From Flavobacterium aquiphilum (GTDB lineage Bacteria > Bacteroidota > Bacteroidia > Flavobacteriales > Flavobacteriaceae): a stretch of 64,000 bases of DNA. The notes under the pieces are model-generated. The model saw only the letters and a list, made by a program, of their open reading frames with translations. It was not told where the DNA came from and ran no database searches. The stretch is taken from positions 3,658,001 through 3,722,000 of the forward strand of contig NZ_CP114288.1 of NCBI RefSeq assembly GCF_027111335.1. Direction: 5' to 3'. The position numbers and the translations under genes were made by a program. This document shows, piece after piece, positions 14,767-31,096 of this stretch; the stretch's first letter is position 1, and each line of letters begins with the position of its first letter.

Positions 14767-16194
14767 ATGGAAGCATGTATCTCGGTTTTTGATATGCTAA
14801 AAATTGGTGTTGGCCCATCCAGTTCACATACACTTGGCCCTTGGCGTGCTGCCGAGCGCTTCTTAAACGAACTGAAAAGTGAATTTGATATTAACAAAAT
14901 CACGAGAGTTAAAGTCGATTTATACGGTTCTCTTTCATTAACAGGAAAAGGACACGCCACCGATTTTGCAGTTATGCTCGGATTAAGTGGTCAAGACCCC
15001 GAATACATTCCTATCCAAAATATCGAAGGAATCATCAAATCGATCGAAACCAAAAATGAAATCCTTTTAGGAAACCAAACGCCTATTCCTTTTTTCATAC
15101 TTCAGGACATTGTTTTCAATAAAAACTTTCTTCCATTCCATGCCAACGGATTAACATTCACAGCTTACTTCAATGATGAAACCAAATATAGTTCTACATT
15201 TTACTCCATAGGAGGCGGATTTGTTGTTAAAGAAGAAAGAGAAGATGTACAGGCTAAAGAAGCCATAAAATGCGCTTTCCCCTATCCTATCGATAAAGCC
15301 AGCGAACTTTTGGCTTATTGCAAAAATGAAAACAAAACCATTTCGGAAATCATATATGATAACGAAAAATCCATGCGTCCCGAAGCGGAAATTCACCATG
15401 AATTAATGCGTATTTGGAAAACCATGTTGGAATGTATGTATATTGGCTGCCATTCCGAGGGAATACTTCCGGGCGGATTACACGTTCGAAGACGTGCCTT
15501 TGACATGCACCAAAATCTAATTGGTTTATCCAATTATTCCACACCACAGGAATGGCTCGAAGAAATCAGGAAAACCGAAGTTAAATTTCGCCAAATTCTA
15601 AAATGGGTTAGCTGTTTTGCATTGGCGGTAAACGAAGTAAACGCGGCTCTAGGACGAGTAGTCACCGCTCCTACCAATGGAAGCGCCGGAGTAATTCCTG
15701 CCGTTTTAATGTATTATTTGGTTATCGAAAACCATCAGGGCGGCGAAAACGAAATCAAAAAATTCTTGATGGTTGCCGGTGAAATAGGGAGTATTTTCAA
15801 AAAAGGCTCTACCATCTCTGCGGCAATGGGTGGCTGTCAAGCCGAAATAGGCGTTTCGAGCGCCATGGCTGCGGGTGCACTATGCGAATTGTTAGGCGGA
15901 AGCCCGGAACAAGTTTTAATGGCTGCTGAAATTGCTATGGAACACCACTTAGGCCTAACCTGTGATCCAATCGGTGGTTTAGTACAAATTCCTTGTATCG
16001 AAAGAAACACCATGGGAGCCATAAAAGCCATAAACGCTGCCGAACTCGCTCTAGAAACCGATGCCAAAAACGCCAAAGTTTCCCTTGACAAAGTTATAGA
16101 CACGATGTGGCAAACCGCCAAAGACATGAACTCAAAATACAAAGAAACTTCCGAAGGTGGACTGGCAGTTGCCGTGAATATGGCAGATTGCTAG
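14767..16194 (+). CDS. sdaA: L-serine ammonia-lyase, iron-sulfur dependent
   Basis: A 475-residue single-chain L-serine dehydratase converting L-serine to pyruvate and ammonia. The N-terminal beta domain ([25 protein letters not shown]) is followed by the catalytic alpha domain from about residue 190. The [4Fe-4S] cysteine positions are visible in [19 protein letters not shown] and IPCIERN, and the [13 protein letters not shown] segment is the conserved catalytic loop. Length is normal for the fused type. It is monocistronic, ending at a TTAGAA-rich hairpin. Confidence 0.93.
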
Positions 16195-16202
16195 TAAAAG
16201 TT

Positions 16203-16246
16203 GGAGGTTAGAAGTTAGAAATTAGAAATTCTAACCTCTAACTTCC
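16203..16246 (+). terminator. imperfect TTAGAA-rich hairpin after sdaA
   Basis: A long near-palindrome built from GGTTAGAA/TTCTAACC units; the arms pair with a few wobble or mismatched positions. It lacks a strong T-run, so it may be a repetitive palindrome that also serves as a terminator. Confidence 0.45.
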
Positions 16247-16250
16247 CATT

Positions 16251-16320
16251 TTCCTGTCCAATTCTAATTTTGCAATAGGATTATAAACTATTGGAATTTC
16301 TTCGATAACTACATCGCTTT
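16251..16320 (-). pseudogene. detached copy of the kup 3' end (kup remnant)
   Basis: This 70-bp segment matches the 3' end of the intact kup gene (26791-26860) at 66 of 70 positions in the same orientation. On the minus strand it encodes SDVVIEEIPIVYNPIAKLEL followed by DRK, exactly the Kup C-terminus, then diverges (MGS and a stop instead of LVN and a stop). Three differences inside the aligned codons (CCT/CCA, GAT/GAC, AGA/AGG) are synonymous. The frame is closed upstream by a TAA and has no start codon. It lies just beyond the last gene of the kdp locus, so kdp is bracketed by direct repeats of the kup end. Confidence 0.85.
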
Positions 16321-16370
16321 TACTTAACTCAGACCATTTTTTTGCTTACATATCCAAACTTCTGCAACAT

Positions 16371-18092
16371 CTAACTAATGTTTAACTGAACAGTAAATTT
16401 ACTGCCCGATCCTAATTCGCTTTCAACAGAAATTTTTCCTCCCTGCGCTTCAATAAACTCTTTGCTTATGGCAAGTCCAAGGCCAGTTCCTTCCTTTACC
16501 GTTCCCGGAACTCTGAAATATTTATCAAAAATCTTATCTTTATATTGTGATGATATACCAAGTCCATTATCTATCACACTTATAAAAATATTTTTTGAAT
16601 CCTTTTCTACTTCGATCCTAACAGAGGAGTTTTCATAGGAATAGCGAATAGCATTTGAAATTAAATTTGAAATCACCCATACTGTTTTCTCTTTATCAAC
16701 AAGTATTTCAGGTAAATTTTCTTCAGTTATCAGCTCCAGTTTTATTTTATTTTGTTCTGCAGTACTTTTTGTTGACTCTATTGCTTGCATCACAATTGGC
16801 TTAACAGCACAATGCTCAATGTTTATCTTGGTTTTTCCGGATTCTACTTGGGTAATATTCAATAGCTCACCTGTGGTCTTTAATAACCTATTGGCATCAT
16901 CATAGATACTGTGAACCAATTCTTTTTGTTCCTGATTGAGTTCGCCAATGCCTTCATTTTCCAATAATTGCAAACTCATTTTCATAGAAGCAATTGGTGT
17001 CTTGAATTCATGTGAAACGGTTGCTATAAAATTGGTCTTGGCTTCATCAAGCTCTTTATAAGCAGTTACATTACGCAGAATAATAAATGAACCAATGTTT
17101 ATCCTTTCTTTCTCACCTGTTGGAATTATCTCGATGGGAATAAATTGTTTTTCAAAATAACTTTCTTTTTTATCGGCATAAATTTTCAAAGTTTCAGGTT
17201 TACTTTTGATTTCATTATCAACCAAATGTTGTAACAAAGAGCGTATTAAATCATTTGAAATTGCTACTTCATTAGCAGATTTCCCTATAACTTCAATAGC
17301 TTTCAAACTGGAAATATTCAATGCTTGTTCGTTAACAAATAAAATGGTGTTCTTATCATCTAATCCTATAACCGGATCCCGCATATTGTTTATCAGTGTT
17401 TCAACACGCTTTTTCTCCATCATGAGTTTAGCCAAATTACTTTCATTGTATTCTTGCAATTTCATAGCCATTGTGTTGAAAGATCGGGCTAAATCACCAA
17501 ACTCATTATGACTTTCAAAATGAACACGTTGTTGGTAATTTCTATCTGCAATTTGACGAATACTATTAGTCAAGTCCCTGATAGGGTTAGCTATGTTGCT
17601 TGGCAAATTTATAAGAAGGGTAAAGGCTATGACAAAACAAGTGGTACCGGTTAAAGAGATCCATAGTATTGCATCCTGAGCTGTTTTGGAAGCTATATTG
17701 CTTTTTCGCTGAATAGCATCCATATTTACCTTCATAATATCAAAAATATCATTACGGATTTTACTAGCTAAAAGACTTGTATTTTGTTTTTTATACATTA
17801 CAATATCTTCGATAAGATTTTGAGTAAACTCGTCTTCACCGATTTCGGTTATATTTTGGGATTGCAATTTTAAAAACTTGTCAAATTTTTCAAAAGATTT
17901 TCCTTCCTTTTCAATTTTTCCTAATTCTTTAAGCATATTTCTGGAATAATCCAATGAATTGTAATTTGCTACAAGTATGTTTTCTGTGTCATTGGATAAT
18001 TTATATACTTGGCGGGTGGCTAATCCTACAAGTAATACAATCAGAAAAAATAGTAATCCAACGCCAAGCGTAAGTTTTGTTTTTATTTTCAT
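16371..18092 (-). CDS. sensor histidine kinase (HAMP-PAS-HisKA-HATPase), kdp-linked
   Basis: A 573-residue membrane kinase. Two transmembrane segments (about residues 7-26 and 143-163) enclose a periplasmic helical domain. A HAMP linker (about 164-216), a PAS domain (about 230-345), the HisKA box FIATVSHEFKTP with H361, and the ATPase domain follow (N box NLISNAIRYS, G boxes DNGLGIS and GTGLGLAIS). It is the last gene of the kdp block, after kdpD-N. By position it is the likely partner of the NtrC-type regulator at the other end of the locus, which would otherwise lack a kinase. That pairing is inference. Confidence 0.87.
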   Translation of the reverse strand: MKIKTKLTLGVGLLFFLIVLLVGLATRQVYKLSNDTENILVANYNSLDYSRNMLKELGKIEKEGKSFEKFDKFLKLQSQNITEIGEDEFTQNLIEDIVMYKKQNTSLLASKIRNDIFDIMKVNMDAIQRKSNIASKTAQDAILWISLTGTTCFVIAFTLLINLPSNIANPIRDLTNSIRQIADRNYQQRVHFESHNEFGDLARSFNTMAMKLQEYNESNLAKLMMEKKRVETLINNMRDPVIGLDDKNTILFVNEQALNISSLKAIEVIGKSANEVAISNDLIRSLLQHLVDNEIKSKPETLKIYADKKESYFEKQFIPIEIIPTGEKERINIGSFIILRNVTAYKELDEAKTNFIATVSHEFKTPIASMKMSLQLLENEGIGELNQEQKELVHSIYDDANRLLKTTGELLNITQVESGKTKINIEHCAVKPIVMQAIESTKSTAEQNKIKLELITEENLPEILVDKEKTVWVISNLISNAIRYSYENSSVRIEVEKDSKNIFISVIDNGLGISSQYKDKIFDKYFRVPGTVKEGTGLGLAISKEFIEAQGGKISVESELGSGSKFTVQLNIS

Positions 18093-18129
18093 CTATGTAA
18101 AATTTATTTGTCATCGGTCATATATGTTA

Positions 18130-18160
18130 TGCTTCGCCAATTCGCTACCGCTCGGGCCGC
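18130..18160 (-). repeat. GC-rich CCCGAGCG...CGAAGC element, copy 1
   Basis: On the minus strand: GCGGCCCGAGCGGTAGCG, then AATTGGCGAAGCA. About 24 of 30 bases match the segment at 40373-40403. It stands out as GC-rich in an AT-rich gap (18093-18263) between kdpD-N and the kinase; the same gap has two copies of ACACCGATA on the minus strand. Confidence 0.45.
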
Positions 18161-18263
18161 CTTTTATTTATCGGTGTTTATCTCACAACATTATATTTTC
18201 TATCGGTGTTCGATGATTTTCAATTGCTTGCGCAAACTTGTTGTCAATGGCGATTTCATTTTT

Positions 18264-19391
18264 TCAGCTTAAAATGATTAAATCGATATCACTCGAAGAT
18301 AATTTATTTAGCAACTCTTTGAAAATATTCGTAGAAAGAATGACTTTCATTATATTCATTCGCGGTTTTCCAATACAAACCGTTGTTACATTTTTTTGCT
18401 CCGCCTGTTCAATAATGGCTTTGGCTATTTTGGTATGTTCAATTTTGACAACTTCTGCTCCGAGTTCGGTGGCTAACTTGAAATTATTAATAAGGTGCCG
18501 TTGCTTATCAAGAGCAATTTTATCAACACTTTCATTAGGCAATTGAACATATAAAACATACCATTTACTGTTATAATAGTTAGCTAGTCTTGCTGTTTTT
18601 CGAATAACTCTTTTGGCGGTATTCTCATTGCTGCTAATGCAGGCAAGAAATTTTTCGTGTCTTATTGCTTTATTTTTTGGTACTTCAATTTCAACTTTTC
18701 GTTCCACCTGACTGGCCACCTCTTTAAGTGCCAATTCCCGAAGTTGTAATATATGTTCACTTTTAAAGAAATTTTTAAGTGCCATTTCTATTTTTTCGGC
18801 CTGATATATTTTACCTTCTTTTAGACGTGTTATTAATTCGTCTGCGGTCAAATCAATGTTTACCACTTCATCGGCCTGAGCCAAAACGATATCGGGAATC
18901 CGTTCTTTCACTTCAACATTGGTAATGCTTTTCACCTCTTCATTAAGGCTTTCAATATGTTGGATATTTACAGCACTGATTACATTTATTCCTGCTTCGA
19001 GAATTTCCATAACATCTTGCCAACGCTTTTCGTTTTTACTTCCTTCGATATTAGTGTGTGCCAATTCATCAACAATTACCACTTCAGGCCGTAAATTGAT
19101 AATTGCCTGCACATCCATTTCCTCAAGTTCCTTGCCTTTATAAAAAAGTTTTCTTCTTGGAATCAAAGGAAGGCCTTCCAATAAATCTTGAGTCTCTTTA
19201 CGGTTATGAGTTTCGATATAGCCAATTTTAATATCAATTCCGTTTTTTAGTAGAGAATGCGCTTCTTGAAGCATACGAAAACTTTTGCCTACACCGGCAC
19301 TCATACCGATGTAGACTTTAAATTTCCCTCTACGTGATTTTTTTATTAAATCGAGAAAGTGCTGTACATTATCTTCCCTTTTATTTTCCAA
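18264..19391 (-). CDS. kdpD: KdpD N-terminal sensor protein (KdpD domain plus Usp domain, no kinase)
   Basis: A 375-residue protein equal to the cytoplasmic N-terminal part of KdpD. The Walker A-like GMSAGVGKSFRM is at residues 29-40 and the Walker B-like VVIVDELAHTN near 105; a universal stress protein (Usp) domain covers about residues 245-375 (FLACISSNENTAKRVIRKTA...). The membrane DUF4118 region and the kinase are absent. They are found in a separate gene at 29513-30625. In the full-length sensor this region responds to ATP and cyclic di-AMP or K+ signals. The gene follows the porin by 21 bp and belongs to the kdp operon. Confidence 0.9.
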   Translation of the reverse strand: MENKREDNVQHFLDLIKKSRRGKFKVYIGMSAGVGKSFRMLQEAHSLLKNGIDIKIGYIETHNRKETQDLLEGLPLIPRRKLFYKGKELEEMDVQAIINLRPEVVIVDELAHTNIEGSKNEKRWQDVMEILEAGINVISAVNIQHIESLNEEVKSITNVEVKERIPDIVLAQADEVVNIDLTADELITRLKEGKIYQAEKIEMALKNFFKSEHILQLRELALKEVASQVERKVEIEVPKNKAIRHEKFLACISSNENTAKRVIRKTARLANYYNSKWYVLYVQLPNESVDKIALDKQRHLINNFKLATELGAEVVKIEHTKIAKAIIEQAEQKNVTTVCIGKPRMNIMKVILSTNIFKELLNKLSSSDIDLIILS

Positions 19392-19412
19392 AATACAACT
19401 TTTTTAGTTGGG

Positions 19413-20498
19413 TTAAAATGAAATAGCCAAAGCTGTTACCATTGCAAAATTTTGCCTGGACAGCTCATTGCCATCAGTAAAAATTTCATCCTTGCTACTC
19501 AAATTTCGGACTTCAATACGCCAAACTACATTGTCATAAAAATTATAATCTAAATTTACGGAATATCCATAAGTTTGAAAGCCATTTGGTGTACCGGTTG
19601 CAATTATTACCTGATTTTTATCTGAATAATACTCTTCCCTAGCTGCAATATCTATTTTGTCGGTGACTTTATATTTTGCAACTAAAACGGGTGAGTACCA
19701 ACAGTTATAACTTTCACTTCCTGTGCTTTTTTGCTCTACCCCAATGTCAAAACCTGTAGTCACCCCCCATTTTTCATTAAGTTGGAATTGTCCATAAAGG
19801 TTATGAAAATAGCGCATCTGTTTTGAATCGTCCGGCTTATCATTGCCAATAAACGAGCTGCTGTTCAAGGTTATTATTGTGTTGGGTTTATAGGTTAACT
19901 GGTGCCCAAAAGCTAAGGTTTTATTTCCGTCAACACGCTGAATGCGCTGCCAACCGTTTAAAACCAATCCGCTTAAAAACCATTTGCCATTATTGGAAGT
20001 GTAGGATATTTTTACACCACTTTCATAATAAGGCGAATTCTCAGCAGGAATACTTCGGGTTAAATTCCAACAGTCTTTACCAATTGCGCTTTCAAAACCT
20101 ATATGTGAAGAAAATATTCCCGCATCTACCCAAAGATTTTGGGTATTTGAAAGTTTTACCCCGGCATTGGCTTCATAAATATTTTTTAAAACACCTTCTT
20201 CGGCAGCTAAATTCGCGTTACTGTAGGTTCCTGTCATTAAAGCTAAGTTTGCCCTAACATTGTCTTTTTCATACGCTGCCTTGATAAAACCTAAATTTAA
20301 ATTCACTTCGTTATGACGATTGTAAGAATAGAGGAAAGCGGGACGGGTATTGTTTTCCGGCTGACCAAAATCATAAGCATAGTATGTTTCTATATATCCA
20401 CTTATTTTTAAGGGATTTGCTTTTTTTACAGTATCAGTTTGCGCTTGTAAACCAAATGAGGAAAGAGCTGCTAACAGGCTTGCTATTTTTGAATTCAT
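19413..20498 (-). CDS. outer membrane beta-barrel porin of the kdp operon
   Basis: A 361-residue protein with a signal peptide (cleavage likely after LQAQ, residue 20) and many alternating amphipathic strands rich in aromatic residues, ending in a strand with the C-terminal aromatic residue (NFAMVTALAISF) typical of outer membrane barrels. It opens with LKISGYIETYYAYDFGQP, the start seen in Bacteroidota putative porins. It is 1 bp from kdpC and 21 bp from kdpD-N, so it is clearly part of the kdp operon; a role in passing K+ across the outer membrane is inferred from context. Confidence 0.82.
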   Translation of the reverse strand: MNSKIASLLAALSSFGLQAQTDTVKKANPLKISGYIETYYAYDFGQPENNTRPAFLYSYNRHNEVNLNLGFIKAAYEKDNVRANLALMTGTYSNANLAAEEGVLKNIYEANAGVKLSNTQNLWVDAGIFSSHIGFESAIGKDCWNLTRSIPAENSPYYESGVKISYTSNNGKWFLSGLVLNGWQRIQRVDGNKTLAFGHQLTYKPNTIITLNSSSFIGNDKPDDSKQMRYFHNLYGQFQLNEKWGVTTGFDIGVEQKSTGSESYNCWYSPVLVAKYKVTDKIDIAAREEYYSDKNQVIIATGTPNGFQTYGYSVNLDYNFYDNVVWRIEVRNLSSKDEIFTDGNELSRQNFAMVTALAISF

Positions 20499-20499
20499 T

Positions 20500-21060
20500 T
20501 TATTTTAATTTATCTAAAGCGATGTTTAATTTAAGGACATTAATTTTTTCGGGACCAAAAATTCCCAACAAAGGGTTTTCAGTATTTTTGCTAATTAACT
20601 GTACCAATTTTTCTTGTTCGATGTTTCTAATTTTGGCGATTCGTTTAATCTGAACTTTTGCTGCCTGTACCGAAATATTCGGATCTAGTCCACTGCCACT
20701 TGCCGTAACTAATTCGGCAGGGATTTCACTTTTTTTAATTTCGGGATTCTGAATCAAGAAAGTGTCGATTCTTTTTTGGACTTCGGCCAAATACTGCGGA
20801 TTGCTTGGTCCTTTATTACTTCCTCCGGAACCTGCCGCGTTATAGTTTACGGCAGATGGTCTTGAATTAAAGTATTTGAGATCGGTAAAAGATTGACCTA
20901 TGTTGGCATACTGCTTTTTACCATTTACTTCAAGGATTTCCCCTTTTCCGCTATTGGGAGTAATTTGAGCAATTCCTAAAATGAACATGGTGTAAATTAC
21001 AGAGAAAAAAACCAAGCATAAGGCTGTCAATTTTATTCCTGATATAATGTGTGTTTTCAT
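20500..21060 (-). CDS. kdpC: potassium-transporting ATPase KdpC subunit
   Basis: A 186-residue protein with one N-terminal membrane segment (about residues 10-32) and a periplasmic domain containing FNSRPSAVNYNAAGSGGSNKGPSNP and TASGSGLDPNISVQAAKVQ, both diagnostic of KdpC. KdpC stabilises the KdpFABC complex and helps couple ATP use to K+ binding. It lies 16 bp after kdpB and directly before the porin gene. Confidence 0.96.
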   Translation of the reverse strand: MKTHIISGIKLTALCLVFFSVIYTMFILGIAQITPNSGKGEILEVNGKKQYANIGQSFTDLKYFNSRPSAVNYNAAGSGGSNKGPSNPQYLAEVQKRIDTFLIQNPEIKKSEIPAELVTASGSGLDPNISVQAAKVQIKRIAKIRNIEQEKLVQLISKNTENPLLGIFGPEKINVLKLNIALDKLK

Positions 21061-21076
21061 CTTTATTATTTTTATT

Positions 21077-23122
21077 TTACATGAATAATGCTACTACAAT
21101 ATCTATTGCTTTAATCCCAATAAAAGGGACAATGATACCTCCAAGTCCGTACCAAAGTAAATTTCTTCTCAATAAAGCCGATGCCCCAATCGGTTTGTAA
21201 GCAACTCCTTTTAAAGCTAGCGGAATCAAAAACGGAATCACAATAGCATTGAAGATAACTGCCGATAAAATGGCGGTTTCAGGACTATGCAGCTGCATGA
21301 TGTTCAATCCCTGCAATGAAGGAATAGCTGTTATGAAAAGTGCAGGGATGATGGCAAAATACTTAGCAACGTCATTGGCAATGCTAAAAGTGGTCAAAGT
21401 CCCCCTTGTCATTAACAATTGTTTCCCGATTTCGACAATTTCAATCAGTTTGGTTGGGTCGTTATCCAAATCCACCATATTACCGGCTTCTTTGGCAGCT
21501 TGAGTTCCACTGTTCATAGCAACTCCAACATCGGCCTGAGCCAAGGCGGGAGCATCATTGGTACCGTCACCCATCATCGCAACCAACTTACCAAGCTGCT
21601 GCTCATTTTTGATGTAATTCATTTTGTCTTCGGGTTTTGCCTCGGCGATAAAATCATCTACACCTGCTTTTTCTGCAATAAACTTGGCTGTTAGCGGATT
21701 ATCTCCTGTTACCATCACGGTTTTTACCCCCATTTTGTGCAAACGCTCAAAACGTTCCTGAATTCCCGGTTTTATAATATCCTGTAATTCGATAACCCCC
21801 ATGACTTTTTCATTAACTGAAACAACCAAAGGTGTTCCTCCATTTTTAGATATATTGATGACATTTCCCTCAATATCTTTTGGAAAATTGTTACCCGCTT
21901 TTTCGCTTATTCCCTTAATGGAATCGGAGGCTCCTTTTCGGATTCTTGTGCCGTCGGGTAAATTGACACCGCTGCATCTCGTCTCGGCTGTAAATTTGAT
22001 AAGTGTTGCTCCATCAATAGAGAGCTTTTCTTTGATACTCTCACCCGCTAATTCAACAATCGATTTCCCTTCGGGAGTTTCATCTGCCAAGGAAGAAAGC
22101 ATACAGTATTTAACGAAGTCTTTTTGATCTACATTCTCCGTCGTATAGAACCTTGTAGCTTTTCTGTTTCCTATAGTTATTGTACCTGTTTTATCGAGTA
22201 ACAATACATCAATATCACCGGCAGTTTCAACTGCTTTACCTGATTTTGTAATTACATTGGCGCGCAAAGCCCTGTCCATACCGGCAATACCAATTGCAGA
22301 TAAAAGCCCTCCGATTGTTGTAGGTATCAAACAGACAAACAACGAAATAAAAGCCGCTATGGTGATTGGAATATGGGCATAATCGGCAAAAGGTTTTAAG
22401 GTAACACAGACAATTATGAAGATTAAGGTAAAGCCTGCTAGAAGTATCGTTAATGCGATTTCATTAGGTGTCTTTTGTCGTGAAGCACCTTCGACCAAGG
22501 CAATCATTTTATCCAAAAAGCTCTCCCCAGGCTCGGTTGTAACTTGTACCTTAATTTTATCGGATAATACTTTTGTCCCTCCGGTCACGGAACTTTTGTC
22601 CCCTCCTGCTTCTCTAATAACCGGCGCACTTTCTCCTGTAATTGCACTTTCATCAATGGTAGCCAAGCCTTCAATGATTTCGCCGTCTGTTGGAATAATA
22701 TCCCCTGTTTCACAAATGAAAACATCTCCTTTTCTTAGACTTGATGACGGAACAACGACTAGTTCATTTACATACATGTCCCCCACTTGTTCTATTTTTT
22801 TGGCAGGAGTTTCTTCACGGGTTTTTCTCAAACTGTCCGCTTGAGCTTTACCTCTGGCTTCGGCTATTGCTTCCGCAAAATTGGCAAAAAGTAATGTAAA
22901 TAATAGAATTAGAAAGATTGCAAAATTATAAGCAAAACTTCCTTGGGACTGTTCTCCGGATAAAATCCAAAGACAAACACAAAACATTACTGCTGTACCG
23001 ATTTCTACGGTAAACATAATTGGATTTCTAAAAAGTGTGGCAGGGTTCAGCTTTAAAAAAGATTGTTTTAAAGCTTCTAGCATTAACTCTTTCTGAAACA
23101 ATGATTTATTTTTAGTTTTCAT
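21077..23122 (-). CDS. kdpB: potassium-transporting P-type ATPase KdpB subunit
   Basis: A 681-residue P-type ATPase. The phosphorylation motif DKTGT has its aspartate at D310; the actuator motif TGES ([11 protein letters not shown]) and the hinge [22 protein letters not shown] are intact. KdpB hydrolyses ATP and drives K+ uptake through KdpA. Length and motifs match the family. It is 7 bp after kdpA. Confidence 0.97.
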
Positions 23123-23129
23123 TATAGTT

Positions 23130-24818
23130 TTATTTTATAGAAAAAAATTCAGCAATCGGCCCTAAAGCCAAGGCAGGAAAGAAAGACAAAGCAGCGATGA
23201 TAGCAATGACAGAGAAAATCATCAGTCCAAAGGTTGCAGTATCCGTTTTTAAGGTTCCAGCACTTTCAGGAATATGTTTTTTATTGGCCAAAATTCCTGC
23301 GATTGCAATCGGCCCTATTATTGGTAAGAATCTTGATAAAATAAGCACAATTCCTGTTGTGATATTCCACCATGGATTGTTATCACCAAGACCTTCAAAC
23401 CCACTACCATTGTTTGCCGCCGAAGAAGTGAATTCATACAGTATTTCGCTAAATCCATGAAATCCCGGATTATTCAATGTACTGGCTCCTTGTTCCGGAA
23501 ATGCTGTTGAAAGTGCCGTTCCGGCTAAAATCAATACTGTGTGCAATAAAGCGACTATCATGGCAATTTTCATTTCCCGGGCTTCAATTTTCTTTCCTAG
23601 AAATTCAGGTGTACGCCCCACCATCAATCCGCTAATGAATACTGCAAGAATGATGAAAATGTAAAAATTCAATATTCCGACACCACAGCCACCGTAAAAA
23701 CAGTTGACCATCATGGCTAACAATTGATTCATACCCGAGAGCGGCATAGCACTGTCATGCATTGAATTTACTGAACCTGTTGAGATTACTGTCGTGGCAA
23801 TACTCCAATATCCCGAAGCTGCTGCCCCAAATCGCACTTCTTTTCCTTCAGTAGCTCCTTTAGAAGTATCTATTCCCATAGCGGCAATCTTTGGATTACC
23901 ATTCATTTCTGTAATTACTGTAGGAATGGTCAAAGCCAGAAAGCCTATAGTCATCACACTGAAAATCATCCAGGAAAGTTTACGACGTTTCAAATAAAAT
24001 CCAAGGGCAAAAATCATGGCAAAAGGAATAATTATTTGCGCCACCATTTCGACCATATTGGTAAAATAATTGGGATTTTCAAAAGGATGTGCCGAGTTGG
24101 CCCCAAAAAAACCTCCCCCGTTCGTACCAACATGTTTAATTGCAGTAAATGCGGCAACAGGCCCTTGAGAAACCTGAACAGTGTCTCCTTGTAGTGTCGT
24201 CATTGTTTGTTTTCCCTCAAAAGTCATTGGAGTACCGTTAAACAACAAAATAACGGCTACAATTATTGAAATAGGAAGCAAAATTCGAGTGCATGATTTG
24301 ATAAAATAGTTGTAGAAATTCCCCAGATTCTCGGTAGTCCTTTCTTTTAAAGCGTTAAACAATACTGCTGCGGCTGCCAATCCGATTCCGGCTGAAACGA
24401 ACTGTAAAAACATTAAAAACAATTGTCCCAAATAACTTAAACCGGTTTCCCCAGAATAATGCTGAAGATTGCAATTCACAATAAAAGAAATAGCGGTATT
24501 AAAAGCCAAATCAGCTGTCATGTTCGGATTATTGTCGGGATTAAGCGGAAACCATCCTTGGCACATTAAAACGAACATAGCCAATAAAAACCAGATCATG
24601 TTCAATGTTAGCAAAACAACCATGTGTTGTTTCCAGTTCATTTCTTTTGTAACATCAATCCCGCTAATCTTATAAAACAACTTCTCAATTGGATTGAAAA
24701 TAGGATCTAAAAATGTCTTTTGACCCAAATAAACTTTAGCAATGTATTTTCCTAATGGGATTGACAATCCCAGTGTAATGAGGAACATTGCAATAATTCC
24801 TAAAATTTCTGTATTCAT
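23130..24818 (-). CDS. kdpA: potassium-transporting ATPase KdpA subunit
   Basis: A 562-residue, strongly hydrophobic channel-like subunit of the superfamily of K+ transporters. Conserved filter regions are seen in [41 protein letters not shown], and [19 protein letters not shown] near the C-terminus. It binds and conducts K+ in the KdpFABC complex. The start codon is 2 bp after kdpF. Confidence 0.97.
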
Positions 24819-24820
24819 GA

Positions 24821-24898
24821 TTAAAATTTATCAGGTTTTACCAACACATAGCAGATATATACAAATACTGCTATCGCAATTATAAATAAGGCTATCAT
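24821..24898 (-). CDS. kdpF: potassium-transporting ATPase KdpF subunit (25 aa)
   Basis: A 25-codon gene: MIALFIIAIAVFVYICYVLV followed by KPDKF, a single membrane helix with the KPDKF ending typical of KdpF. KdpF stabilises the KdpABC complex in the inner membrane. It starts 3 bp after the preceding micro-ORF and ends 2 bp before kdpA. Confidence 0.9.
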   Translation of the reverse strand: MIALFIIAIAVFVYICYVLVKPDKF

Positions 24899-24901
24899 AT
24901 C

Positions 24902-24985
24902 TTAAATTTTTTCGAAATAATTAATCGATGCAAATAGGAGTGCAAAGCATAGCAGTCCAGCTCCAACTAAAATTAGTGTCATCAT
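24902..24985 (-). CDS. 27-residue single-helix membrane peptide upstream of kdpF
   Basis: The frame begins ATGATG and encodes MMTLILVGAGLLCFALLF, then ASINYFEKI and a stop. It is one hydrophobic helix with a charged FEKI end, of the same size and type as KdpF, and stops 3 bp before the kdpF start. It would be the first gene of the kdp operon, about 50 bp after the predicted sigma-54 start point. The function is not known; it may be an additional small Kdp subunit or a leader peptide. No strong Shine-Dalgarno is seen, which is normal for this phylum. Confidence 0.65.
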   Translation of the reverse strand: MMTLILVGAGLLCFALLFASINYFEKI

Positions 24986-25046
24986 AAAAGTGTTCTGTTT
25001 TTCATTTTGGTTTATGTTTACTTTTTTTGTTCATTTTTAGAATACA

Positions 25047-25062
25047 TGCCAAAAGCAAGCCA
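25047..25062 (-). promoter_or_regulatory. sigma-54-type promoter of the kdp operon
   Basis: On the minus strand: TGGCTTGCTTTTGGCA. The invariant GG (-24) and GC (-12) are 10 bp apart as required, and 9 of 12 informative positions match TGGCACG-N4-TTGCA. It is about 62 bp before the first kdp micro-ORF, and the adjacent divergently placed information (an NtrC-type activator gene with GAFTGA) supports sigma-54 control. Confidence 0.55.
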
Positions 25063-25134
25063 AATTCCAAGACTAATTTCTAACCCTTTGATTTCACACG
25101 TTTTATTTTTATTTCTGAATTTCGGGCAATAAAA

Positions 25135-25157
25135 AACCCTATCGAAACGATAGGGTT
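25135..25157 (-). terminator. terminator of the NtrC-type regulator gene
   Basis: AACCCTATCG and CGATAGGGTT pair perfectly around a 3-base loop; on the minus strand the stem is followed by a T-run. A third copy of CGATAGGGTT (25170-25179) lies between this and the stop codon and could form an alternative stem. Confidence 0.8.
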
Positions 25158-25180
25158 GATACTTTCAAAACGATAGGGTT

Positions 25181-26533
25181 TTAACTTATTTTGTATTCTT
25201 CAAGCTTTCTATAAAGCGTTGTTAAGGCGATTCCGAGCAGTCGGGCTGTTTCTGTTTTGTTGCCATTAGTGTAGTTCAATACTTTTTGAATATGCAGTTT
25301 TTCGGTCGAAGCCAATGAAAAAGCAGAAAGTATTTTATTCGAATTTTCGGTATTGGAAGGCTCCAATTGCTGAATTTCGATTGGAAGACTGTCAGGCATA
25401 AGCGCTTCATTCGTTTCTAAAATAACACTTCTTTCGATTACATTTTTTAGTTCACGAATATTCCCGGGCCAAGTATGCATTTTAAGTAAATGAACAAATT
25501 CATTTGATAAGGTTTTGATTCTTTTATTGGTTTTTAAAGCGAAGAAATGCAAAAAGTGCTTCGCAAGGGTTTCAATATCTGCAACACGTTCTCTTAATGA
25601 TGGCAAAGGAATTTGAAATACTGACAACCGATAATACAAGTCTTGGCGAAAATTCCCTGCTCCAATTTCTTTTAATAAATCGCGATTGGTCGCTGCAATA
25701 ATTCTGATATTTACTTTGGTTATTTTGCTTTCGCCAATTTTAATAAATTCCCCATTTTCAATGACACGCAACAGTTTTGCTTGCAGATCTATAGGTAATT
25801 CACCTACCTCATCCATAAAAATGGTTCCATTATTGGCTTCCTCGAATAAACCTTTTTTGTCTTTTGTTGCCCCTGTGAATGCTCCTGAAGTATGCCCAAA
25901 CATTTCACTTTCTAACAAATCATGACTAAAAGCGGAACAATTGATTGCTACAAAATTTTCGTTTTTTCTATTACTTGATTGATGGATTGCCTGAGCAAAA
26001 ACCTCTTTTCCTGTTCCGGTTTCACCTGTTAGCAAAACCGTTGTATCGGTGGGAGCCACTTTTTTGGCTAATTCAATTCCTTGTTGCAATGCTTTGGAAT
26101 TCCCGATAATTCCTTCGAATGAAAATTTAGCATCTAGTTGTGCTTCGTATTGCGCAACTTTTTTGGTCAGTTTTACTTTTTCAACGGCTCTGTGAAGCAA
26201 TGGGATTATTTTGTTATTGTCATCACCTTTAACTATATAATCGAAAGCTCCGTTTTTGATAGCCTGAACTCCATCGGGGATATTTCCATATGCGGTCAAT
26301 AGAATTACCTCGGTATATGGATTCTTTTCTTTTATAATTGCTGTTAAATCAACGCCATTTCCGTCAGGAAGCTTAACATCACAAAGCACTATATCAATAT
26401 TGCTTTGTTCTAGTTTTTTCAAACCTGTTTTGCAATCTCCTGCTTCTATAACTTCAAAACCTTCCAAATGGATAATTCTGGCTATAAGCTTACGAAGTTT
26501 CTCTTCGTCGTCTATGATAAGTACTTTTTTCAA
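25181..26533 (-). CDS. sigma-54-dependent response regulator (NtrC family), kdp-linked
   Basis: A 450-residue regulator with three domains: a receiver (phospho-acceptor D52, acidic pair D8 and D9), an AAA+ domain with Walker A GETGTGKE (170-177) and the intact sigma-54 contact loop GAFTGA (217-222), and a C-terminal Fis-type helix-turn-helix (about 425-447, GNKTETARLLGIALTTLYRK). The apparent start is TTG at 26533; no in-frame ATG lies nearby upstream. An exact TAATTTTG box at 26557-26550 sits close upstream. It lies directly before the kdp operon on the same strand and is its likely activator, replacing the usual KdpE in that role. Confidence 0.9.
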   Translation of the reverse strand: MKKVLIIDDEEKLRKLIARIIHLEGFEVIEAGDCKTGLKKLEQSNIDIVLCDVKLPDGNGVDLTAIIKEKNPYTEVILLTAYGNIPDGVQAIKNGAFDYIVKGDDNNKIIPLLHRAVEKVKLTKKVAQYEAQLDAKFSFEGIIGNSKALQQGIELAKKVAPTDTTVLLTGETGTGKEVFAQAIHQSSNRKNENFVAINCSAFSHDLLESEMFGHTSGAFTGATKDKKGLFEEANNGTIFMDEVGELPIDLQAKLLRVIENGEFIKIGESKITKVNIRIIAATNRDLLKEIGAGNFRQDLYYRLSVFQIPLPSLRERVADIETLAKHFLHFFALKTNKRIKTLSNEFVHLLKMHTWPGNIRELKNVIERSVILETNEALMPDSLPIEIQQLEPSNTENSNKILSAFSLASTEKLHIQKVLNYTNGNKTETARLLGIALTTLYRKLEEYKIS

Positions 26534-26549
26534 TGGAGTAGAATTTGTA

Positions 26550-26557
26550 CAAAATTA
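26550..26557 (-). promoter_or_regulatory. -7 promoter box of the NtrC-type regulator gene
   Basis: TAATTTTG on the minus strand fits TAnnTTTG exactly; the transcript would have a leader of only about 10 bases before the TTG start. Confidence 0.45.
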
Positions 26558-26714
26558 CAGTTTTGATAAATGAAATAGCGATTAATGAGGATAAATCGTT
26601 GGTTTTAAAAAAAATGATTAAACTATAAGAATTAGAAATCGATGCTAAAAACGACAAAATTTCTATGTAAAAATATTAGATAATTAAAAAATTTGATTTC
26701 TACTTCTAATAAAG

Positions 26715-26759
26715 AAAGATTTCAGATTAGAAGTATATTATTTCTAATCTGAAATCTTT
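26715..26759 (-). terminator. hairpin after kup
   Basis: AAAGATTTCAGATTAGAA (26715-26732) and its exact complement (26742-26759) form an 18-bp stem with a 9-base loop, 19 bp past the kup stop. On the minus strand the following tract is T-rich but interrupted. Confidence 0.65.
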
Positions 26760-26777
26760 TTTAACCTAAAACATTAT

Positions 26778-28721
26778 CTAATTAACAAGCTTTCTATCCA
26801 ATTCTAATTTTGCAATAGGATTATAAACTATAGGAATTTCTTCGATAACTACATCGCTTCTGTCCAATCCGAAAGCCCTTGTATCCGACAGTGACATGTT
26901 TTTCAACATATAGTAGGAATTCAACAGGATTCCATCTCTAACAGAAAACTCATTTTCTACCGACAAAAATTTCTCTATAATTATAAATTTAAAATCAGGT
27001 TCCGAATTATATTTTGTTGAACCATCGGGACGAATATGCAAATTAAGTTCCTTATTGTCAACAAGATTTTGAACAATTCGTTTAAAATACAATTCCACTT
27101 TTGGTTGGATTCTAAAACCTATATTCAAGACAATCTTAATTACTTTATCATCCAATAACTCTAAAACTTCATAATTCAAATCAAAAGGAGAATTAGTCCT
27201 GTTAATATGAAAAAACCAATATACATCCGCTCTTTTTGGATTTTTAGAAAAGATAGAATTCAATATTTTCTCTTCAATTTCATAATTCCTGTCCGCTTTT
27301 GATAAATATATTAAATGAGTCGAATACTTTGGAATAGTCACATCATTGCTTAATTCACTCAACTTAGCCGTATGTTCCGTTAAATTGGTAAATTTCACTA
27401 ACTTATTGTTGATTTTTCTTGAAAAATACCAAACATACATCGTCATAAATATAAACAACTCAAAGAATAAAAACATCCAACGTTCTTTGATTTTTACAAT
27501 ATTGGCGGCGAAAAATGCTAGTTCGATAACCACAAAAACGGTGATGATTGCAGCAATGAGAATCCTGTTCATTTTTTTGATGTAAATCAAATAATAATTT
27601 AAAAGAACAGTGGTCATCAGCATCGCTATGGTAATCGAAAATCCATAAGCCGCTTCCATATTGGATGAAGTCCTAAAATACAAAACCATCAAAATACAGC
27701 CAACCCATAAAATAGTGTTCACCGACGGAATGTAAATCTGACCTTTCAAATTGGTTGGGTTTTTCATCGTCACACGAGGCCAAAAATTAAGTGATACCGC
27801 TTCATTAATCAATGTAAATGAACCGCTTATCAATGCTTGGGAAGCAATAATTGCTGCAAATGTCGAAATCACAACACCCGAAAACAAAAACCATTGCGGC
27901 ATGATGCCATAAAAAGGATTTTTACCTTCAAGAAAAGGTTTGCTCTGATTCATCAGCCAGGAAGCCTGTCCCAAATAATTGACAACCAAAGCTATTTTTA
28001 CAAAAACCCAAGTGATCCTGATATTTCCCTTTCCACAATGTCCCAAATCCGAATACAATGCCTCGGCTCCCGTTGTGCAAAGAAAAACAGCTCCCAAAAG
28101 CCAAAATCCATGAGGATACTCAACCAATAATTCATAGGCATACACAGGATTCAAAGCAGTCAAAATCGCAGGATGTTCCAAAATTTGGATAAATCCCAAT
28201 ACCAAAAGCATCGAAAACCAAACGACCATGGCAGGGCCAAAAAAGAAACCTACTTTTTGAGTTCCAAAACGCTGAAAAAAGAAAAGTCCAGACAGGATTA
28301 CGAGAACTATCGGAAGAATTGGAATACCCGGAACTACATCACCCAATCCCTCTACTGCCGAAGCCACAGAAATTGGTGGTGTTATAATTCCATCTGCCAA
28401 AAGCGTTGTCGCTCCCAAAATAGTTGGGATTACCAATTTTCCTTTTCCAAATCGTTTAACCAAAGCATAAAGTGAAAACACACCACCTTCCCCATGATTA
28501 TCTGCGGAAAGAGTCATTAAAACATATTTAAAAGTCGTTTGAAAAGTAAGTGTCCAAAATATACACGAAATCCCTCCATACACCAATAATTTTGATATTT
28601 CCCTTTGCCCAACAATGGCTTTCATAACATATAACGGACTGGTTCCTATATCTCCGTAAATAATTCCGAGTGCAACCAAAAGTGATGCTGCCGTAACTTT
28701 TTGAACCGTTGATTTATTCAT
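26778..28721 (-). CDS. kup: KUP family low-affinity potassium transporter
   Basis: A 647-residue K+ uptake protein with 12 predicted membrane segments up to about residue 445 and a cytoplasmic C-terminal domain. Diagnostic blocks are GIIYGDIGTSPLYV near the start, DNHGEGGVFSLYALV, and TTLLADGIITPPISVASAVEGL. It transports K+ probably with H+. The last 23 codons are duplicated as a remnant at 16251-16320. It lies between the kdp locus and the KdpE/KdpD-C pair, all on the minus strand. Confidence 0.95.
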   Translation of the reverse strand: MNKSTVQKVTAASLLVALGIIYGDIGTSPLYVMKAIVGQREISKLLVYGGISCIFWTLTFQTTFKYVLMTLSADNHGEGGVFSLYALVKRFGKGKLVIPTILGATTLLADGIITPPISVASAVEGLGDVVPGIPILPIVLVILSGLFFFQRFGTQKVGFFFGPAMVVWFSMLLVLGFIQILEHPAILTALNPVYAYELLVEYPHGFWLLGAVFLCTTGAEALYSDLGHCGKGNIRITWVFVKIALVVNYLGQASWLMNQSKPFLEGKNPFYGIMPQWFLFSGVVISTFAAIIASQALISGSFTLINEAVSLNFWPRVTMKNPTNLKGQIYIPSVNTILWVGCILMVLYFRTSSNMEAAYGFSITIAMLMTTVLLNYYLIYIKKMNRILIAAIITVFVVIELAFFAANIVKIKERWMFLFFELFIFMTMYVWYFSRKINNKLVKFTNLTEHTAKLSELSNDVTIPKYSTHLIYLSKADRNYEIEEKILNSIFSKNPKRADVYWFFHINRTNSPFDLNYEVLELLDDKVIKIVLNIGFRIQPKVELYFKRIVQNLVDNKELNLHIRPDGSTKYNSEPDFKFIIIEKFLSVENEFSVRDGILLNSYYMLKNMSLSDTRAFGLDRSDVVIEEIPIVYNPIAKLELDRKLVN

Positions 28722-28833: not shown

Positions 28834-29520
28834 TTAAGTGGTATTGAATCGGTAACCTACACCGGATTCAGTAATAATAAACTTAGGGCGGTTTGGATCT
28901 TCTTCTATTTTTTTTCTAAGTTGCGCAACAAAAACACGTAAATATTGTGTCTGATCGGCATAGCTGTTTCCCCAAACCTCTTTCAGTAAATATTGATGAG
29001 TCAAAACCCTGCCATCATTTCTTATAAAAATGGAAAGTAAATTATATTCGGTCGTTGTGAGCTTTAAAATTTCATTATTCAATCTCACAATACGAGAAGC
29101 CAAATCTATTGAAACCGGGCCAAATTCAATTATTGGTTCTTTTTCTTCGGTTGCAGAATTTCGCAATGCAGTTCGAATCCTAGCTAGTAATTCCTGCGTG
29201 CGAAAAGGTTTTGTCAAATAATCATTTGCCCCATTATCAAGTGCTTTTACAATTTCATCTTCGGCACTTTTTACCGTCAAAATAATAATTGGATTTTTAT
29301 ACCATTCGCGTAAGCGTTTCAAAACAACTTGCCCGTCTTCATCTGGCAAACCCAAATCAAGAATAACCAAATCAGGCTGATGATTGGCAACCATCGATAA
29401 TCCTTCTTTTGCATTCACGGCAAAGAATGTTCTGTAATCATTAGATTCCAATGTGATTTCAAGTAGTTTCCTAATTTGAACCTCATCATCAATTACCAAG
29501 ATTTGAGCACTATTATTCAT
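28834..29520 (-). CDS. kdpE: KdpE-like OmpR-family response regulator
   Basis: A 228-residue regulator with a receiver domain (D55 in LVILDLGLPD, K in LTKPF) and a winged-helix DNA-binding domain (LTTTEYNLLSIFIRNDGRVLTH...SGVGYRF). The LGLPDEDG and QYLRVFVAQLRKKIEEDP stretches are closest to KdpE. It overlaps the preceding kinase gene by 8 bp, so the two are translationally coupled. It probably controls kup, kdp or both; kup starts 112 bp downstream on the same strand. Confidence 0.88.
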   Translation of the reverse strand: MNNSAQILVIDDEVQIRKLLEITLESNDYRTFFAVNAKEGLSMVANHQPDLVILDLGLPDEDGQVVLKRLREWYKNPIIILTVKSAEDEIVKALDNGANDYLTKPFRTQELLARIRTALRNSATEEKEPIIEFGPVSIDLASRIVRLNNEILKLTTTEYNLLSIFIRNDGRVLTHQYLLKEVWGNSYADQTQYLRVFVAQLRKKIEEDPNRPKFIITESGVGYRFNTT

Positions 29521-30625
29521 TTGAAATCTCTTTTGTATTCATAGTTAATGTGTGAAAACGTAGCGTAAAAACTGAACCTCCTTCTTCCCTATTCTCAAGT
29601 GTTACTTTCCCATGTTGCGCTTCGACAAATCCTTTTACGATTGATAACCCAAGCCCTGTCCCTCCGGTTTTGGAATTTTGAAGGCGATAAAATTTATCAA
29701 ACACTTTATCAATTTCATTTTCCGGAAAGCCTATGCCATCATCGGCAATTGTAATCACACATGGAAATGTTTTATCCGGATTATATTCAAAATCAACATC
29801 TACATTATAAGAAACCTTAATTTCTATTTTGGCTCCTTTGGGTGTGTATTGCGAAGCGTTAAAAACCAAATTATAAATAATCTGCTGCATCAAACCATAG
29901 TCTAATTTGAAAAGAGGCAAATTTTCATCGGTTTTAACAACTACTTTATGAAACTGCAAATCCTCTTTTAGATGATCCAAAACATTATAAATCAGTTCTT
30001 CCAAATCGCACCAATCCATTTTGGGTTCAATAACACCCGATTCCAACCGGGACATATTCAATAAATTTTCGACTTGATGATTTAATCGCAAAGAAGCTTT
30101 CTCAATCTCTGCATACAGATTCTCCTTATTTTCTTCAGAAATAGGTACTGATTTGGTCTGAATAGTATCAATCGCCCCCATAATAGTCGAAATCGGTGTT
30201 CGCAATTCATGGGACAACGAATCCAATAAAGCATTGTAAAGTTTCATCGTATTGATTCTAACCTCTTTTACCTGTAATATTTTCTCAGCTCTTCTTATTT
30301 TGTGGGTCAAAACAGCATTTACAAGAGCAATGATAAAAAACAAAAACAATAACAAAGAGTCTTCGGCATTACTGATATGGAACGTATAATAAGGTTCTAT
30401 AAATAAGAAATTCAAAATCAACGCACTCAAAACTGCACTGAGCAACAACGGTAAAATTGCTAGAAACATCGACAACACCGAGACTACGACCAAGAGCAGA
30501 TAACCCACAATTTTATAGTCTAAATAGTCTCTTATAAACAAACATAATGCAGCGACTGTACCGACTGATAATACGCTTATTAAATATTGATTTTTAATCT
30601 TTATTTGATTTAAAATAGTGCTCAT
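29513..30625 (-). CDS. KdpD C-terminal half: DUF4118 membrane domain and histidine kinase
   Basis: A 370-residue kinase. Four closely packed membrane segments (about residues 15-108) include the KdpD-specific DUF4118 signature FLFIEPYYTFHISNAED (about 74-89). Then come HisKA (SLSHELRTPISTIMGA with H139) and the ATPase domain (NLVFNASQYT, DDGIGF, GGTGLGLSIVKGF). This is the part of KdpD missing from the 375-residue protein at 18264-19391. No KdpD nucleotide domain or Usp domain is present here. It forms an operon with the KdpE-like gene. Confidence 0.9.
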   Translation of the reverse strand: MSTILNQIKIKNQYLISVLSVGTVAALCLFIRDYLDYKIVGYLLLVVVSVLSMFLAILPLLLSAVLSALILNFLFIEPYYTFHISNAEDSLLLFLFFIIALVNAVLTHKIRRAEKILQVKEVRINTMKLYNALLDSLSHELRTPISTIMGAIDTIQTKSVPISEENKENLYAEIEKASLRLNHQVENLLNMSRLESGVIEPKMDWCDLEELIYNVLDHLKEDLQFHKVVVKTDENLPLFKLDYGLMQQIIYNLVFNASQYTPKGAKIEIKVSYNVDVDFEYNPDKTFPCVITIADDGIGFPENEIDKVFDKFYRLQNSKTGGTGLGLSIVKGFVEAQHGKVTLENREEGGSVFTLRFHTLTMNTKEISNE

Positions 30626-30650
30626 GATTCTGGCGTTTATTTTATTAAGA

Positions 30651-30658
30651 CAAAGTTA
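30651..30658 (-). promoter_or_regulatory. -7 promoter box of the KdpD-C/KdpE operon
   Basis: TAACTTTG on the minus strand is an exact TAnnTTTG match 26 bp before the kinase start codon. Confidence 0.45.
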
Positions 30659-30737
30659 AATCATATCGTATAAGTATTTTATAATATAACGAAGCAGGAT
30701 ATAAAGATTTTATAAAGATTTCACTTAACAGTTTTCA

Positions 30738-30846
30738 GGAGCAGAAAAATTAGGATTTTTTGGAAATATGGGTCCCGCTTTCGCCTTTATCTCTCCTCTC
30801 GTACCAAAAGACGAGAGGAGAGGATATCGTCTCAATCGGGGCTAAA
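30738..30846 (+). repeat. dispersed structured intergenic element, copy B
   Basis: Begins GGAGCAGAA and ends ATCGGGGCTAAAA. Its hairpin is a perfect 12-bp stem CTCTCCTCTCGT/ACGAGAGGAGAG with an 8-base loop. CCCG (30774-30777) pairs with CGGG (30837-30840). It lies in the gap between the divergent KdpD-C kinase and panB genes. Compared with copies A and C the stem sequence is entirely different. Confidence 0.72.
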
Positions 30847-31096
30847 AGCAAGCAATTAGCATTTTTGGTTTCAATTCAGACCTGACAGCTCAAATTAGTC
30901 TAACCATAAACATTTCAAAACGTCATTTTTAATAAAATTTATCAAAACCACATAATAAATTACCAATGTCACAATTTGACTAGCTCTCAACCACACATTC
31001 TTTCCAAAAACTCAATTTAGAAAAATTCTATTTATTACTTTTACACTTTCAAAACAAATTCAATCCCGAGCAAATCGGAAATAAAATAATAAGTAC

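Follow-up and report, generated by a model that had tools for sequence, protein, structure and literature searches.

How a potassium-uptake operon came to lie between two copies of the 3' end of one gene is the question raised by a locus of Flavobacterium aquiphilum (RefSeq assembly GCF_027111335.1), which we studied in a stretch of 64,000 nucleotides of contig NZ_CP114288.1 (positions 3,658,001 to 3,722,000; hereafter the window). The minus strand of the window carries, in order, genes for the kinase HK370, a KdpE-like regulator and Kup, followed by the kdp block (an NtrC-type regulator, kdpA, kdpB, kdpC, a porin, the N-terminal part of KdpD and the kinase HK573) and then by a detached tail of kup, which adjoins the plus-strand gene sdaA. 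Pfam backs the names of the ten proteins from HK370 to HK573; the names sdaA, panB, rlu and yifB/comM are presumed, that of sdaA being taken over from an earlier note on this DNA. That note had proposed that the kdp genes arrived by recombination at the kup 3' end in the manner of an integrative element, rebuilding an intact kup end and displacing the old one. We find that the block is foreign to the clade in which it now resides, and, with somewhat better than even confidence, we favor a history in which a kdp block like those of the genomes G218 and G009 was added between sdaA and kup by additive homologous insertion, the core of the two kup tails being converted during the event or later.

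The orphan kup 3' end and the kup-sdaA interval in related genomes

The direct repeat described in the earlier note is present as claimed: positions 16251-16320 match 26791-26860 at 66 of 70 bases in the same orientation and 10,540 bp apart, with 16258-16319 identical at 61 of 62. A DNA profile of ten kup ends, one from the window and nine from relatives, recovered 16239-16322 with an nhmmer E-value of 2.5e-17, second only to kup itself, while the next-best place in the window reached an E-value of 0.025. A DNA search of the whole 5.05-Mb genome (E <= 0.001), bearing on the suggestion that further kup fragments be sought there, gave these two places and no third copy, and a search with the Kup protein recovered two kup genes and the orphan fragment. 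The segment had been taken for the last codons of kup, with synonymous differences. It is indeed kup 3' coding sequence, but the 70 bp end short of the kup stop, and the homology extends across the stop codon (16238-16240) over strongly different last codons (RKMGS-stop versus RKLVN-stop). Likewise, three of the differences (16253, 16256 and 16292) are synonymous, but all four fall in kup coding sequence and the fourth (16320/26860) exchanges Lys and Arg.

An ortholog of kup (E <= 1e-235) is present in 74 of 398 genomes of the genus, the window's own included. In all seven close relatives considered, namely the six members of the window's rpoB clade (G173, G030, G191, G283, G117 and G135) and additionally G421, kup and sdaA are convergent and 115-239 bp apart, with no kdp between them. 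The two genes are also adjacent without kdp in G382 and G003 (75 and 72 bp), and in G293, which is not among the 74, a frame-broken kup lies 97 bp from sdaA, again with kdp absent between. In more distant kup-bearing genomes the interval is occupied by a porin-like gene (G028, G090 and G138) or spans two to nine kilobases (G247, G394, G248 and G367); in G176, G349, G415 and G144 sdaA lies outside the stretch read. No second kup end was found in the other kup-sdaA intervals among 20 loci scanned, 15 of which include sdaA, and this held on rescanning the G117 interval, where kup is in two frames; a 25-bp match in L065 was discarded, as it is not a kup end. In a search of the 398 genomes, nine of the matches listed (to an E-value of about 2e-8) cover the kup-tail part, and each of them is the respective genome's own kup end. 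Close relatives without kdp at this place therefore have kup directly beside sdaA with a single kup end, as the earlier note expected if the block is an arrival, and of the two observations that it named as contrary, a full second kup beside sdaA occurs in none of the loci read and a kup fragment conserved without kdp is not among the matches listed from the 398 genomes. The kup gene itself is in two frames in G117 (L081, 16361-18293) and in several pieces in G293 (L282), owing to mutation or sequencing error.

Origin of the kdp block

A kdpA gene (E <= 1e-100) was found in 164 of the 398 genomes, and G173 and G030 are not among them. Because yifB is broken or divergent in some genomes, it was set aside as species marker and rpoB was used in its place (27 full-length sequences from 30 genomes; G003 and G085 gave none and G184 a short piece only). 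In G173, yifB (comM-like) lies in two far-apart pieces (C1:2693765-2694613 and 3416675-3417379), as if split by insertion or rearrangement. The rpoB tree pairs the window with G173 (support 100/98) inside a clade with G117, G191, G135, G030 and G283. The kdpA tree (26 sequences) conflicts with it, joining the window to G218 (99/95) and then to G009 (100/98), and separating the kdpA of G191, G283, G117 and G135 from it by a long branch (0.26, 100/100). Each of the seven genes in the block is nearer to G218 (84-94%) than to G191 (56-82%); between HK573 and the kinases linked to kdp in G191, G117 and G283 the figure is 55-57%. With both trees strongly supported, the conflict marks the kdp block as a xenolog, and the donor was likely a G218/G009-like Flavobacterium from another branch of the genus. 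Together with the empty site in the relatives, this upholds the proposal that the block came to kup from elsewhere. Base composition was uninformative as a mark of transfer (G+C of 0.361 in the block and 0.343-0.351 in its flanks), and sliding identity against six relatives showed no mosaic that would derive the sdaA or kup flank from another member of the clade.

Across the genus kdp takes several positions in this neighborhood: between kup and sdaA in the window and G275, between HK370 and panB in G191, G283 and G117, and between panB and sdaA in G009, G357 and G134. The position between HK370 and panB is without kdp in G173, G030, G421 and the window. Since the window lacks the kdp that G191, G283 and G117 have there, the block probably restored a high-affinity K+ uptake system that had been lost. 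The HK370-panB spacer of the window is similar to both border spacers of the G191 kdp block (scores of 121 and 159, against 200-shuffle maxima of 55 and 57). About 200 bp of this spacer (30726-30960), with an inverted repeat seen by eye, are unmatched in the G173 spacer above the shuffle maximum. In G275 (L187) the kdp between sdaA and kup is of the common kdp lineage, and an additional kup (47%) stands between kdpA and the NtrC gene. In G144 (L080, 15996-16352), with kup on the minus strand, a remnant of an NtrC receiver domain (119 aa, 64%) lies directly downstream of kup, and the kdp genes are on a different contig; kup was probably at one time followed by a kdp block in this genome as well.

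Junctions, tails and the mode of insertion

DNA resembling that of G218 continues on the NtrC side to about 26567 and ends on the HK573 side at about 16347, just past the HK573 stop. The right spacer, from about 26669 to kup, resembles the kup-sdaA spacer of G173, with a Smith-Waterman (SW) score of 122 against a maximum of 72 in 300 shuffles and of 82 on the reverse strand. It is alignable with the spacers of five relatives. Its forward scores against G191, G030, G117 and G283 (78, 69, 65 and 65) lie above all shuffles and are equaled on the reverse strand (79, 70, 68 and 65) because the matched part is a palindromic hairpin; against G135 the score is 62 (reverse 55). A similar hairpin is found in G421, and no further close copy of the hairpin occurs in the genome of the window, the best match besides its own inverted arm having an E-value of 0.34. 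Given that the G173-like spacer is still attached to full-length kup, this gene has most likely retained its original end and spacer, and the tail next to sdaA would be the additional one, which is the reverse of the rebuilt kup end and displaced old end that had been proposed.

The two kup tails differ at 1 position in a 60-bp core and at 9 positions in the outer 24 bp. Between the window's kup and five relatives the corresponding counts are 8-15 and 6-9, and in comparisons of one relative with another they are 7-15 and 3-8. When the two tails of the window were set against each kup-relative pair, Fisher tests gave values of 0.008-0.033, the relatives not being independent of one another. Compared with each of the five relatives, the outer codons of the fragment show one to four fewer differences than do those of kup itself. 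As near-identity is confined to the core, gene conversion, or the recombination tract itself, would be a likelier explanation of this contrast than a recent copy, and the synonymous differences are no sign of a young copy made from a working kup.

The empty site in the relatives, the foreign kdp, the G173-like spacer on kup and the extra tail on the far side together imply that at least the tail of kup is duplicated around the insert and that the spacer most likely is too. Additive homologous or transformation-type insertion fits such a duplication better than integration by an integrase. The incoming block would have comprised HK573, the N-terminal part of KdpD, the porin, kdpC, kdpB, kdpA and the NtrC-type regulator. 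Incoming DNA with a short piece of kup and sdaA may have paired with the chromosome and been taken up by a Campbell-like single crossover or by transformation-type integration; the 60-bp core of the two tails would have been homogenized by gene conversion, during the event or later, with the outer parts keeping a divergence of species level. Recombination between the two cores could excise the block and leave a full-length kup, a possibility that follows from the geometry and not from observation.

Several points weigh against additive insertion. In G275 and G333, kdp immediately follows kup, at a distance of 37 and 21 bp, respectively, showing that contiguity of kup and kdp arises by other routes too; no kup tail was found at the far end of kdp in these two genomes. 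The limits of core and outer part were drawn after the alignment had been seen. A collinear match of the right spacer is obtained with G173 only, and G191, G030, G117 and G283 match the hairpin alone; the spacers of G382 and G003 gave no score above shuffles. The left spacer resembles neither the right spacer nor the spacers of the five relatives, with which it is not alignable, so that one copy of the spacer must have been replaced or have decayed; it has 57 matches in its own genome at E <= 10 (itself included), the best other at 2.4e-6. Thus, of the recipient sequence duplicated around the block, the kup tail is clear, the spacer is recognizable on one side only and a piece of sdaA is marginal. 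This last, a stretch of 36 bp between the NtrC gene and kup, is placed and oriented as a two-sided duplication, which it would complete, would have it, and none of 300 shuffles exceeds its SW score of 47; however, 3 of 842 unrelated segments do, and nhmmer gives it 3.5 bits, with an E-value of 0.8 over the 64 kb (third match counting sdaA), equivalent to about 0.003 when scaled to its own 244-bp spacer. We regard the stretch as suggestive only and do not take a two-sided duplication as proven. Finally, no other genome with the junction of the window is among the matches listed from the 398-genome search.

The main rival, which we consider unlikely, begins with a tandem duplication of the stretch holding sdaA, kup-kdpE-HK370, kdp and panB, after which the first kup-kdpE-HK370 was deleted save for its tail and the second kdp was lost. 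Such a course accounts both for the kup tail abutting HK573 and for the kup-sdaA type spacer, with its possible piece of sdaA, between the NtrC gene and kup, and the ancestral order that it presupposes (kup-kdpE-HK370-kdp-panB) exists in G191, G283 and G117. However, the kdp of the window is not of the clade's kind and hence a separate replacement would be needed; both inner junctions are unlike the spacers predicted by that order, with scores at shuffle level, and the middle of the HK370-panB spacer showed no kdp relic. It appears very unlikely that an older, complete second kup beside sdaA decayed to its tail independently of the arrival of kdp: in its favor, the fragment's outer codons have diverged from kup to the degree seen in a different species, but no second kup of this type stands beside sdaA in the relatives read, and the fragment ends close to the border of the block.

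Islands moved by integrases use the 3' ends of genes, and the direct repeat of a gene end on either side of a block gained by horizontal transfer, with its near-identical 60-bp core, would suit an element inserted at the kup 3' end by a site-specific integrase that has since been lost. This was the earlier note's likening, which we rejected as first choice and hold to be highly improbable. Had an element used the kup end as its attachment site, the old spacer would now adjoin sdaA; the G173-like spacer sits on full-length kup, which disfavors an integrase. The note's own remark that the block lacks such a gene is borne out, there being none among the block's open reading frames (ORFs), and no Phage_integrase gene lies within 0.57 Mb, the distance to the nearest of eight (the genome-wide search did not extend to serine recombinases and transposases). 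Further, the cargo is the kdp block only, and no mobile-element domain was found around the G218 copy, where ten of twelve flanking ORFs were scanned.

If the block was indeed added between sdaA and kup, both the site and the likely donor lineage of a regained operon can be identified, along with the scar that it left, which makes this a clear case. It also illustrates that an insertion flanked by near-identical direct repeats may be neither young nor the work of an integrase, as a short core can be kept uniform by gene conversion. With regard to potassium biology, the locus adds to the picture of kdp at several positions in one neighborhood across one genus. A bolder view, which we think distinctly unlikely, is that the sdaA-panB neighborhood is a recurrent home of potassium genes, where a foreign kdp was regained a few kilobases from its old place and where 60-bp repeats kept identical by conversion allow the block to be deleted without damage to kup, permitting switching between kdp-plus and kdp-minus states. 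Overall, we view the locus as an ordinary but well-documented scar of gene transfer.

Features of the locus and known systems

The features are collected in Table 1. The content given earlier for the interval between the repeats, kdp genes with their regulator and kinases, agrees with Pfam, which adds a porin that had gone unnamed; no further minus-strand ORF of at least 80 aa is listed between 16371 and 26533 beyond the block genes. KdpD is split, with the sensor domain (PF02702) in the kdp block and the DUF4118-kinase half beside kup together with the KdpE-like regulator; the two halves differ in ancestry, the sensor being foreign and the kinase half native. A 23-bp motif stands in two neighboring copies of 78% similarity between the NtrC gene and kdpA (25139-25184) and is a candidate regulator-binding site.

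Table 1. Features of the kup-kdp-sdaA locus, in coordinates of the window
Feature	Coordinates	Strand	Evidence and remarks
sdaA (L-serine dehydratase, presumed name), left neighbor, intact	14767..16194	+	ORF; ortholog convergent with kup in close relatives
Left spacer with palindromic repeat	16195..16237		Repeat found at many other places in the genome
Orphan kup 3' end, 27 codons and stop	16238..16322	-	nhmmer, codon table; 60-bp core near-identical to kup
HK573 histidine kinase (HAMP-PAS-HisKA-HATPase), xenologous block	16371..18092	-	Pfam; 85% to G218
KdpD N-terminal sensor domain protein	18264..19391	-	PF02702, E 2.7e-92; 94% to G218, 79% to G191
Outer-membrane beta-barrel porin (BBP2)	19413..20498	-	PF07642, E 5.8e-110; 84% to G218, 56% to G191
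kdpC	20500..21060	-	PF02669; 86% to G218, 62% to G191
kdpB	21077..23122	-	P-type ATPase domains; 90% to G218, 82% to G191
kdpA	23130..24818	-	PF03814; 94% to G218, 75% to G191; tree
NtrC-type sigma-54 response regulator	25181..26533	-	Pfam; 84% to G218, 64% to G191
Possible sdaA 3' remnant (suggestive only)	26632..26667	+	nhmmer 3.5 bits, SW score 47
kup-sdaA type spacer with clade hairpin, attached to kup	26669..26777		SW against G173; alignment with five relatives
kup, full length, native to clade	26778..28721	-	PF02705 and PF22776; 94% to G173
KdpE-like response regulator, kup-linked, native	28834..29520	-	Pfam; 92% to G173
HK370, KdpD C-terminal-half-like kinase (DUF4118-HisKA-HATPase), native	29513..30625	-	Pfam; 94% to G173
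HK370-panB spacer, no kdp	30626..31096		Site of kdp in G191, G283 and G117

Literature searches returned no title on this locus, although one may nonetheless exist. Within the genus, the clusters of G275 and G333 are like that of the window in having an NtrC-kdp-HK573 block directly downstream of kup-kdpE-HK370; they differ from it in their spacers of 37 and 21 bp and in having no orphan kup tail, and the kdp of G275 is of another lineage. The 10K genomic island of Riemerella anatipestifer, reported to be moved by an integrase (PMC6764341), shares with the window a direct repeat around a block of about 10 kb. Unlike that island, the block of the window has no integrase, and its old spacer is found with the full gene and not with the orphan end. 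A further parallel comes from a pneumococcal transformant, clone R3022, for which PMC3784515 describes the additive insertion of a cassette together with a duplication of 3,276 bp that has no flanking repeats; the authors regard the mechanism as unclear. R3022 is the product of a laboratory event of 3.3 kb in Streptococcus, whereas that of the window would be an old, natural event in Flavobacterium, with a duplicate that has mostly decayed. What the two would have in common is a foreign cassette added with direct duplication of recipient sequence, and without pre-existing repeats.

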